From Cognatishimia sp. 1_MG-2023 (GTDB taxonomy: Bacteria > Pseudomonadota > Alphaproteobacteria > Rhodobacterales > Rhodobacteraceae): a stretch of DNA of 64,000 nucleotides. This document shows positions 39,091 through 42,884 of this stretch, piece after piece (positions within the stretch are counted from its first letter, which is position 1; every line of letters begins with the position of its first letter). The notes beneath the pieces are model-generated. The model was not told the DNA's origin. It saw only the letters and a list, made by a program, of their open reading frames with translations, and ran no database searches. The translations under genes were made by a program, and so were the position numbers. The stretch covers positions 124,001-188,000 of the forward strand of contig NZ_JAUORX010000001.1 of assembly GCF_030548175.1 (NCBI RefSeq), written 5' to 3'.

Positions 39091-40272
39091 ATGAACGGAG
39101 CGGACACCGCCTGGATCATCGTTGCCACAGCACTCGTGCTATTTATGACATTGCCAGGTTTGGCATTGTTCTACGGCGGCCTCGTACGCGCACGCAATGT
39201 GCTGAGCGTTTTCATGCATTGCTATGCCATCGCTTGTTTGATGAGCGTTTTGTGGTTCATCTTTGGCTATTCCATCGCCTTTGGCGACGGTGGCTCTGGG
39301 TATTGGGGCGGTCTGGGCAAGATGTTCCTTGCTGGCGTCACTGTTGATAGCCTGTCGGGTACTCTGCCCGAGGTTCTATTCTTTGCCTTTCAAATGACCT
39401 TTGCGATCATCACACCGGCTTTGATTGTGGGTGCTTATGTTGAGCGTATTGGCTTTGGTTTTGTTCTTCTCTTCTCTGCACTTTGGATGTTGGTGTGCTA
39501 CGCACCTGTCGTTCACTGGGTTTGGGGCGGTGGCTTTTTGGCGGATGGCGGTATCTTTGGGGAAACCGGCGTCAGAGATTTTGCGGGTGGCATCGTGGTT
39601 CACGAAACTGCGGGTATTGCAGCGTTGTTGATTGCTGTTGTGCTTGGTCCACGCAAAAACAAAACGACCCCGCCACACGCGCCTTGGATGGTGATGATTG
39701 GTGCGGCGATGCTTTGGGTTGGTTGGTTCGGCTTTAACGGCGGCTCTCAGCTAGCAGCAGACGGTGGTGCGGCGATGGCGTTGACCGTAACGCACATCTC
39801 TGCGGCGACAGCCTCTTTGACTTGGGCGCTTTGGGAAAAGTTCAAATACGGAAAAGCCTCTTTGGTTGGCATGGTTACCGGCACAATTGCGGGTCTGGCA
39901 TCTATTACGCCGGCGTCCGGTTTTGTTGGTCCTGTTGAGGCTTTGGCCATCGGCGCAATCGCAGGCATCTTGTGCCAAGAATGCGTGAACTTGATCCGTA
40001 ACAGCTTGAAAATCGACGATACTTTGGACGTTTTCGCGGTTCACGGTGTGGGCGGTATCTTTGGGACCATCATGATCGCAGTCTTCGGCGCGGGCACTTG
40101 GGCGGCGCAGCTTGGTTCGCTTGCAATCGTTGGTATCTTTACCGTTGTTGTGACGCTGATCCTGATCAAAGTCGTTGGCATGATCACACCGCTGCGTGTT
40201 GACGAAGAGACAGAAACCAATGGTCTGGACCTAACGGTTCACGGCGAGCGGGCTTACGATTTCGGCTCATAA
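39091..40272 (+). CDS. amtB: Ammonium transporter AmtB
   Basis: 393 residues, 11 membrane segments. The N-terminus goes straight into segment 1 (ADTAWIIVATALVLFMTLPGLALFYGGLV) without the cleaved signal of E. coli AmtB. The conducting twin His are in IVVHETAG and FAVHGVGG. No glnK lies beside it, unlike the usual glnK-amtB pair, so this may be a second copy. It lies 2.4 kb from the start of the dusB-ntrBC operon, and nitrogen control is likely. Terminator at 40294-40323. Confidence 0.95.
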   Translation: MNGADTAWIIVATALVLFMTLPGLALFYGGLVRARNVLSVFMHCYAIACLMSVLWFIFGYSIAFGDGGSGYWGGLGKMFLAGVTVDSLSGTLPEVLFFAFQMTFAIITPALIVGAYVERIGFGFVLLFSALWMLVCYAPVVHWVWGGGFLADGGIFGETGVRDFAGGIVVHETAGIAALLIAVVLGPRKNKTTPPHAPWMVMIGAAMLWVGWFGFNGGSQLAADGGAAMALTVTHISAATASLTWALWEKFKYGKASLVGMVTGTIAGLASITPASGFVGPVEALAIGAIAGILCQECVNLIRNSLKIDDTLDVFAVHGVGGIFGTIMIAVFGAGTWAAQLGSLAIVGIFTVVVTLILIKVVGMITPLRVDEETETNGLDLTVHGERAYDFGS

Positions 40273-40293
40273 GCGGATCCCATAACTGATCTC

Positions 40294-40323
40294 AAAGGCG
40301 GCCCCACGGGTCGCCTTTTTTCG
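40294..40323 (+). terminator. Rho-independent terminator after amtB
   Basis: AAAGGCG (40294-40300) pairs with CGCCTTT beginning at 40312, and the T-run TTTTTT continues to 40321. The inner loop GCCCCACGGGT can pair further. Confidence 0.85.
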
Positions 40324-40325
40324 TT

Positions 40326-40420
40326 CAGGTTTCGCCACGAAACGGTTGCGCGTCCTGCGCACGGATACCGAACATCTGGTTAATGTGGAAATTCGTACGA
40401 TTCACGGGTTGAAACGTACG
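40326..40420. repeat. 95-bp dispersed repeat, copy B
   Basis: Matches 24684-24778 at 92 of 95 positions. Lies immediately after the amtB terminator, in the convergent spacer with the reverse transcriptase gene. CGTACG occurs at 40394 and 40415, again 21 bp apart. Confidence 0.93.
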
Positions 40421-40432
40421 GTTGGATTTGTG

Positions 40433-40502
40433 TGGGGCTTTGCCCCCTTGCCCACCCTACGGGATGGGCAATTCCCCCAGAGTATTTTTGGAAAGATGAA
40501 GA
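40433..40502. repeat. Intergenic repeat family 2, good copy
   Basis: GGGGCTTTGCCCCC hairpin, CCCACCCTACGGGATGGG, then CCCCCAGAGTATTTTTGGAAAGATGAAG. Related copies are at 24799, 53692 and 63144. The rest of the spacer to 40628 shows no gene or other structure. Confidence 0.8.
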
Positions 40503-40628
40503 GTGGGTGGGGTTTTGGGTGTTAGGAGTTGTCCATCGCCTGTTGGGGGAGCAAAAGCTGCACACAGCACTGAGCAGACATGATCTTTCGATACGTCAGG
40601 TGGGAACCAAACGTTGGTGACTGCCACA

Positions 40629-42134
40629 TTATGAGAATTCGGCATACTCTCGAAAAAGGGACAGTTCCTCGGTTTTAGGAACAGGGTCGAGATCTTCTGG
40701 TTTACTGATAACGAGCTTAGCCACATCCAGCGCTTGCACTAGTGCTTGACTACTGATCCAGTCATTGTTCCACAGCTTTGTATCCTGCCCATTCACAACC
40801 TGACAGATTGGCTCCGAACTCTCGAAGTTCAAGTTTACATCTTTTGCTTTAGTCACGCGTTGCAACCAAACCTCAAGATGGCCGTTGTGTGGTATCCGCT
40901 TCATCTTTTCAGCCACCTTTTTCCACATCTCAGGTCGAGCATCTTCTTGGGCCAATGAAATCAGCTTGGCAAGGATACCAGACAATGCCGGAAATGCGCT
41001 TGGCGAAATCGCCGCGATATCACAAACAATCGCCACCTGCACACCCAGATCGTCTGGCACCTCGGTGATCTTCGATATTTTCTGAAATGCGTTGTCAGCT
41101 AGTCGCTTGACGGCCCCTGTGTTTGGATATTCACGGGCAAAAGAGTGTAGGCGAAGAAGCTGCTTTTGGATGGTCTTGGCTTGCGTGATATCCATATCTT
41201 GAAGTTGAATTCCCGCCAGCTTTTCGGGCTTTATTGCTCCCTCAACGATGTTCGTACTTACGGAAGTTTTTGCTGCCCCTAACTGCATGCCAACCTTTCT
41301 TAAGCAATCACTAATTACTCGGACAATCTCAGACGCATGTTGGTCACTGCATGTGAAAATACTATAGTCGTCTCGATACCTTAGGATGTGGAAATCCTTA
41401 TCGTCTGCTAGATGATCGGTGATCTGATGATCGACGTAGGCCAAAACTAGTTCGGCAATAATGTCCATCAAAACGGAACCCTGGGTTATTCCGTTCGTTT
41501 GACCATAACGGCTGTTCCTGATGTGAAAATCTATTTGGTTCCCAAGAAGGTTTTTGTCGTGTTGTTTTTCTTTGGCTGTTTCATACCCATGCAAGGCCCA
41601 CGGAATGCTGTGTGTGTATAGCGAACCGTAACAGTTCGAAACGTCAGTTTTCAGAAGGTGAGTGTACTCCATCGATAATTCTAAGGAGCGCTGTTCGTAA
41701 CGCAGCCACCAATTCCGCACCTGAACTGCGTCATGTTTGTCATCGTCGCCAGATGCCATCGGAAAGCTGGTACATTCCACCACACCTTCGTGCAGTTCTT
41801 TCAAACGCTTCTGAAGCAGCTCCCAATTGACCGGCTCGCAGACTAGCTGCACCATCGTCATATAGATCGCTGGATGAATGAGTTCAAACGGTCGCCACGC
41901 AAAGCGTCCGTCTTTTGTACTAAGAAGTTCGTAATTGACTCCAGCCATATCCATTGCACGCTCTGGTTTAGCCTTTTGAAAAGTTGTGTAGGCTTGTCCA
42001 CCCATGGCGGTGGCTGTGTCTTTCAAAATTGTCTCAAAGCTAATGTATGGCGGGAAATCAGACCGAAAGTAACATTCTGGCTTCTTTAAGTAGGCCTTTG
42101 CAGTCTTCGCGTCCAAATCGATAATTCGCGTCAT
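40629..42134 (-). CDS. Stand-alone reverse transcriptase, probable antiphage (UG/Abi-type DRT) protein
   Basis: 501 residues from the ATG at 42132-42134; a GTG five codons upstream is possible. RT palm motifs: A, TDVSNCYGSLYTHSIPWALHG (D164); B, GQTNGITQGSVLMDIIAE (211-228); C, LRYRDDYSIF (D255/D256); then a motif D-like GMQLGAAKTSVS. About 200 helical residues follow (FPALSGILAKLIS, HNGHLEVWLQRV), like the alpha-helical repeat tail of UG/Abi reverse transcriptases, many of which are antiphage systems that polymerise DNA, in some cases from a nearby non-coding RNA. I see no maturase domain, retron NAxxH motif or DGR template repeat. All catalytic residues are present. It lies alone between amtB and ratA, in DNA more AT-rich than its neighbours, which suggests transfer. 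The exact UG subgroup is unresolved. Confidence 0.85.
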   Translation of the reverse strand: MTRIIDLDAKTAKAYLKKPECYFRSDFPPYISFETILKDTATAMGGQAYTTFQKAKPERAMDMAGVNYELLSTKDGRFAWRPFELIHPAIYMTMVQLVCEPVNWELLQKRLKELHEGVVECTSFPMASGDDDKHDAVQVRNWWLRYEQRSLELSMEYTHLLKTDVSNCYGSLYTHSIPWALHGYETAKEKQHDKNLLGNQIDFHIRNSRYGQTNGITQGSVLMDIIAELVLAYVDHQITDHLADDKDFHILRYRDDYSIFTCSDQHASEIVRVISDCLRKVGMQLGAAKTSVSTNIVEGAIKPEKLAGIQLQDMDITQAKTIQKQLLRLHSFAREYPNTGAVKRLADNAFQKISKITEVPDDLGVQVAIVCDIAAISPSAFPALSGILAKLISLAQEDARPEMWKKVAEKMKRIPHNGHLEVWLQRVTKAKDVNLNFESSEPICQVVNGQDTKLWNNDWISSQALVQALDVAKLVISKPEDLDPVPKTEELSLFREYAEFS

Positions 42135-42440
42135 AGTGTTTTTCCACACCTCTCCAGCTCAAGCCTCAAAGTTGAGGTCTCATTGAACCATATACATGCA
42201 ACTTCAACGTGCGAAATCCATGAGCTTCAGTAAAATTGTAGATCTAGTATCTATTTTTAAAATTGGCTTTGTTCCTAAGATCAGTTTTTTGTTGAACGTG
42301 TCTTAAGAGTCGGATTTTAACCGATCACAGAATTTTGCAAAGTACGCTTTCTGCGCTTCGATGCCGCTGGCGCGAACCGCAGCATTCCGTAAAATGGGCT
42401 CAATCCTGCCAACCGCCCCCTTAAAACCACTCGCCCCCCG
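42135..42440 (-). other. AT-rich non-coding stretch upstream of the reverse transcriptase
   Basis: About 300 bp with no convincing gene. 42181-42310 is clearly AT-richer than the flanks. A short hairpin, CCTCA/TGAGG with a 4-nt loop (42164-42177), lies in the mRNA leader just before the reverse transcriptase start. It could hold the promoter and, by analogy with several DRT systems, a template RNA; this is untested. Confidence 0.35.
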
Positions 42441-42884
42441 TCAGCTATACAACTCCGCCGCGCGTGTCTCAAACGCCCGGACAATGCGGTGCATGGCTTC
42501 GTTGAAGACCACGCCGATGATGCCTTGTAGGATCGCGTTTTTGAATTCGAAGTCGACGAAGAAAGAGACTTCGCAGCCGTCCTCTGTGTCTTTGAAATCC
42601 CAGGTGGATTTTAGGAACTTAAACGGGCCGTCTAGGTATTCTGTGTCGATGCTCATGTCCGCGGGATGCAACACAACGCGAGAGCCAAAGCGTTCGCGGA
42701 AGACTTTGAAGGAGATCACAAGATCGGCCAGCATGACTTCGGCCTCGTCTTGTGCTTCGCGTGAGCGGATGCGGGCGGCCGAGCACCACGGCAGGAACTG
42801 CGGATAAGACGCCACATCCGCTACCAGATCGTACATCTGTTGGGCTTTATACGGCAAAGCGCGTGTTTCGGAATGCGTGGGCAT
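42441..42884 (-). CDS. ratA: RatA/COQ10-like START-domain (SRPBCC) protein
   Basis: 147 residues from the ATG at 42882-42884 ([21 protein letters not shown]). The polyketide cyclase/COQ10 signature is [19 protein letters not shown] and the final helix [20 protein letters not shown]. Bacterial members are called RatA, but in alphaproteobacteria they are usually taken as coenzyme Q-binding COQ10 homologues. The gene is normally found beside lipA in this group; here other genes separate them. Divergent from hpt. The open frame reaches upstream into the hpt start without a plausible start. Confidence 0.88.

Follow-up and report, generated by a model that had tools for sequence, protein, structure and literature searches.

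The closest described system to the gene analyzed here is Abi-P2 of the P2-like Escherichia coli prophage EC30, for which a structure (PDB 7r08), DNA polymerase activity and a requirement for Tyr61 were reported (PMC9508834). In the construct of residues 1-541 described there, Tyr61 was required and Tyr46 was dispensable for DNA synthesis, the Phe mutant of Tyr61 gave no DNA polymerization, and the main text says nothing of Tyr53. Resistance to phage T5 is cited in that paper from an earlier study. Two other Abi polymerases, AbiK and AbiA, are described as untemplated and protein-primed, and the oligomers reported are a hexamer for AbiK, a dimer for AbiA, and a trimer for Abi-P2 (PMC11077055). 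According to the same source, strict abortive infection was not apparent for AbiA and AbiK in liquid tests; thus, the term "abortive" should not be assumed for the AbiP2 protein considered below. AbiP2 is placed in class 1 of these enzymes and described as untemplated, and the role of the DNA made by class 1 enzymes in defence is described as not known (PMC12632851, PMC13275509).

We analyzed a stretch of 64,000 nucleotides from Cognatishimia sp. 1_MG-2023 (hereafter the window). It contains a reverse transcriptase (RT)-like gene at 40629-42134 on the minus strand, the strand having been left unspecified in the initial annotation. The gene has an ATG start, a TAA stop, and no internal stop, and encodes 501 amino acids; its limits follow from the frame, the profile match, the alignment with 7r08, and the starts of homologues. 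An alternative GTG start 15 bases upstream would yield 506 amino acids, and close homologues have ATG or TTG where the ATG of the window gene stands. The RT motifs A (TDVSNCYGSLYTHS), B (GQTNGITQGS), and C (RYRDDY) are all present as first quoted, and Pfam RVT_1 matches the protein with 52.6 bits (cut-off 29.6). The initial annotation had also described the protein as free of maturase, endonuclease, and retron features, and this holds: the Pfam search lists no nuclease domain, and none of the NCBIfam maturase, retron, and AbiA models reaches its cut-off. The G+C content of the gene is 0.47, compared with 0.529 for the window.

The initial annotation proposed a stand-alone RT of the UG/Abi type acting as a single-gene defence candidate, with the subgroup left open. 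Both parts of this proposal are supported, and the subgroup can now be named. The AbiP2 profile of PADLOC matches residues 1-498 of 501 with 588.6 bits (E 2.5e-177), compared with 536.6 bits for the EC30 protein itself. The best match among PDB sequences is 7r08 (E 9.7e-68), with residues 1-464 of the query aligned to residues 32-502 of the chain; the second-best PDB match has E 5.6e-17 and covers residues 145-300 only. From this alignment and the profile, the region of approximately residues 300-501 (40632-41237, minus strand; the boundary is approximate) probably corresponds to the helical C-terminal domain of Abi proteins. In the phylogenetic tree, 27 AbiP2 proteins, including those of the window and EC30, are split with support 95/93 from eight other RTs, named by PADLOC as Drt3b (two), Drt6 (three), Drt8, UG9, and UG20, which form an outgroup whose branches are long according to a warning of the tool. 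The nearest rows to the window protein are L003, L031, L032, and L061, the last from a Paracoccus plasmid. Based on these data, we assign the gene with high confidence to AbiP2 as an RT-like polymerase of that kind. It is an intact, ordinary member of the group, which answers the subgroup question; protection against phages by its product is less sure than this identity.

The catalytic residues were compared across 32 homologue rows (31 distinct, with one duplicate), window and EC30 included. The motif A aspartate D164 (41643-41645, minus strand) and the motif C aspartates D255 and D256, which form part of Y253-R254-D255-D256 (41367-41378, minus strand), are invariant across all 32 rows. The initial annotation had suggested YRDD as a clue to the subgroup, and RYRDD is indeed constant in AbiP2 (32 of 32 rows, 31 distinct). 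A simple pattern search found no YRDD in ten other RTs of the same family sample, eight of which carry PADLOC names: six have another residue and four have no match to the pattern.

The first residue of the window protein faces residue 32 of EC30, and Tyr46, Tyr53, and Tyr61 of EC30 correspond to Y15, Y22, and Y30, respectively. Y30 (42045-42047, minus strand) is Tyr in 30 of the 31 rows that reach its column (29 of 30 distinct), and Y22 (42069-42071, minus strand) in all 31 (30 of 30 distinct). Tyr occupies the Y15 column in 21 of 31 rows reaching it, and this variability fits the dispensable Tyr46 of EC30. The one exception at Y30 is L057, whose N-terminus is present and has W in this column. 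Because of this substitution, and because Y22 is even more constant, the priming residue is uncertain outside EC30. It is conceivable, if rather unlikely, that Tyr61/Y30 is not the only priming site of AbiP2 and that the invariant Y22 (Tyr53 in EC30) serves as the first or a shared nucleotide acceptor; in that case, relatives such as L057 would still prime.

By homology with EC30, the window protein is predicted to consist of RT-like palm and fingers, the thumb being replaced by an alpha-helical domain at the C-terminus, and would form a trimer. DNA synthesis would start on the protein's own Y30, and single-stranded DNA would be extended without a template by means of D164, D255, and D256. In cells, the protein may interfere with the growth of some phages. 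Our guess is that the DNA-protein adduct could act as a switch or as a decoy for phage proteins handling single-stranded DNA. Most likely, the protein synthesizes untemplated DNA with protein priming and stops some phages, as has been reported for EC30, the shared activity and the targeting of phages being what we infer from the relationship of the two proteins. Since they are only 30.7% identical, the activity and phage range may differ from those of EC30.

The RT gene sits between amtB and a ratA/coq10-like gene. Both flanking genes are present in all eight other genomes of the genus, and in five of them (G777, G775, G308, G778, and G779) the gap is shorter than 200 bases and contains no gene. 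In the other three, the gap holds Usp and GFA proteins (G776), a ferric-reductase-like protein (G774), or a MerR regulator and a protein without a Pfam match (G780); Pfam reveals no defence-like genes in these three gaps. Thus, the RT gene is an insertion in a variable gap. An intergenic element directly downstream of it (40327-40510) is repeated across the genome, with 40 whole or partial hits (40 of 120 candidates scored), and has matches in nine of nine genus genomes.

As the RT gene stands among housekeeping-type genes, its neighborhood gives no support for defence. This isolation, like the split or broken-frame copies that occur in relatives, could speak for a remnant, decayed or domesticated, that has no part in defence. 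The AbiP2 match in Paracoccus fontiphilus is divided between two scaffolds, with residues 1-413 at L039 8001-9239 and residues 411-501 at L043 86-358, and the copy on an Agrobacterium leguminum plasmid (L062 5001-6486) matches in two pieces at a place where no gene is listed. Against this explanation, the window gene retains a full-length frame and its catalytic residues, and the nonsynonymous divergence is low. The NG86 estimates are dN 0.079 and dS 1.29 for comparison with L003, and dN 0.089 and dS 1.56 with L031, so that dN/dS is about 0.06 for both; dS was not computable for the other four of the six pairs run. The window gene is under purifying selection, and we consider a remnant very improbable.

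The distribution of AbiP2 is patchy. At E <1e-150, the profile matches six of 394 genomes in the family sample, own genome included; at the loose level of 0.001, a further 39 genomes match with at most 121.7 bits, and the eight scanned represent other RT families. With the window protein as a query at 1e-30, matches were found in two of 385 genomes of the class sample and 15 of 390 of the order sample, which overlap and both include the source genome. Within the genus, three of nine genomes match, again counting the source genome, the other two at 41-42% identity. Among phage records, nine have a match, which in six of them covers at least 80%; the corresponding numbers for plasmid records are 207 and 30. 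The 18 pattern matches in viral contigs include no relative.

Another scenario is a templated enzyme with a non-coding RNA encoded nearby as its template, as in DRT2, DRT9, and DRT10. The spacer upstream of the RT gene (42135-42440, minus strand) offers 306 bases without a recognized gene, and a 70-base segment whose end lies 5 bases ahead of the start codon shows slightly stronger folding than its shuffles (z -1.73). However, this spacer shows no clear excess of structure and does not resemble the DNA upstream of 20 other rows, and scanning the window against Rfam at gathering thresholds gave no hit; a divergent RNA could evade the Rfam, folding, and flank tests. Using 100 dinucleotide shuffles per sequence, we obtained mean z values for the upstream DNA of 20 rows (0.07 for 70 bases and -0.22 for 150 bases) and for 100 bases downstream in 19 rows (-0.50). 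Strong single values are seen upstream of L061 (150 bases, -4.11) and downstream of L003 (-2.4) and L055 (-2.38). Many relatives seemed by eye to carry a small hairpin directly ahead of the start codon; this was rejected given the mean of 0.07 over 20 rows. With a duplicate pair omitted, flank similarity is confined to close pairs (137-206 bases upstream and 95-179 downstream), and the window flanks resemble none of the other flanks compared. The class 1 assignment of AbiP2, described as untemplated in PMC12632851 and PMC13275509, also argues against a template, and we regard a templated mechanism as highly unlikely. AbiP2-related RTs occur in CRISPR loci (PMC8934634). A search for CRISPR arrays found no direct repeats of at least 20 bases within 150 bases at 30000-53000 of the window. 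A repeat search of 40200-42700, which bears on the template and variable repeats of diversity-generating retroelements (DGRs), found only pairs of 12-15 bases.

A partner gene was sought by comparing all frames within 6 kb against each other at 14 loci, several of them on short contigs, and no neighbor is common to more than two of the 14. The two-locus matches are ATPase-like proteins that weakly match mad8 or HerA (L031 and L032), Drt8 with its PD-(D/E)XK protein (L032 and L034), a transposase (L036 and L061), and one short match without an identity (L036 and L037). In L032 (9560-11933) and L034 (525-2814), AbiP2 stands beside this second defence RT, Drt8, and its partner (RTasPDDEXK) in differing orientations. 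In L031 and L032, its surroundings resemble a mobile island: recombinase-like genes, recognized by eye, lie nearby, as do ATPase-like proteins matching TrwB, HerA, or mad8.

Of the outcomes that the initial annotation had set against its own reading, membership in group II introns or retrons and loss of a catalytic residue did not occur. Nine NCBIfam models match the protein, all below their cut-offs, including those for Drt4, Drt3b, group II introns, retrons, and AbiA; no model named AbiP2 is among them. A group II intron RT/maturase was rejected with 45.2 bits for TIGR04416 against a cut-off of 300, a retron RT with 35.3 against 235 and 11.2 against 450, and AbiA with 21.8 bits for TIGR04499 against 250. 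That the protein belongs to another UG group near AbiP2 is scarcely credible: Drt6 (179.2 bits), UG14 (177.6), and Drt4 (152.8) are indeed the next PADLOC profiles, but the AbiP2 profile spans the whole protein and leads by about 410 bits (the others are about 409 bits or more below it), the EC30 gene and the relatives L041 and L032 show the same order of AbiP2, Drt6, and UG14, and the tree sets three Drt6 proteins apart from the window protein.

The assignment to AbiP2 brings a previously unnamed RT into a family for which both a structure and a priming residue are available. Knowledge of the AbiP2 mechanism is unchanged by this gene; diverse homologues such as the window protein, about 31% identical to EC30, can be used to test which features of AbiP2 are essential.

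Among its close relatives, 13 distinct full-length proteins (L003, L031, L032, L061, and nine more) are 68-86% identical to the window protein over the whole length. They are mostly alphaproteobacterial; one is from a gammaproteobacterial MAG with the title Oceanospirillaceae. Of the 14 proteins formed by these and the window protein, 10 end in the same eight residues, FREYAEFS. Unlike the window gene, some of these relatives adjoin recombinase-like genes, transposases, or Drt8. By description, AbiP2 is an untemplated, protein-primed Abi polymerase like AbiK and AbiA; it differs from them in sequence, as the AbiK profiles of PADLOC match only part of the window protein with 107-110 bits and the AbiA model stays far below its cut-off. 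Compared with EC30 Abi-P2 (PDB 7r08, PMC9508834), the window protein has a different C-terminal end at 30.7% identity, and, unlike in the prophage, no prophage genes are seen beside its gene. The two proteins share a near-whole-length alignment, the catalytic aspartates, the tyrosine at Tyr61/Y30, and RYRDD, and each is encoded by a single gene in a variable place.
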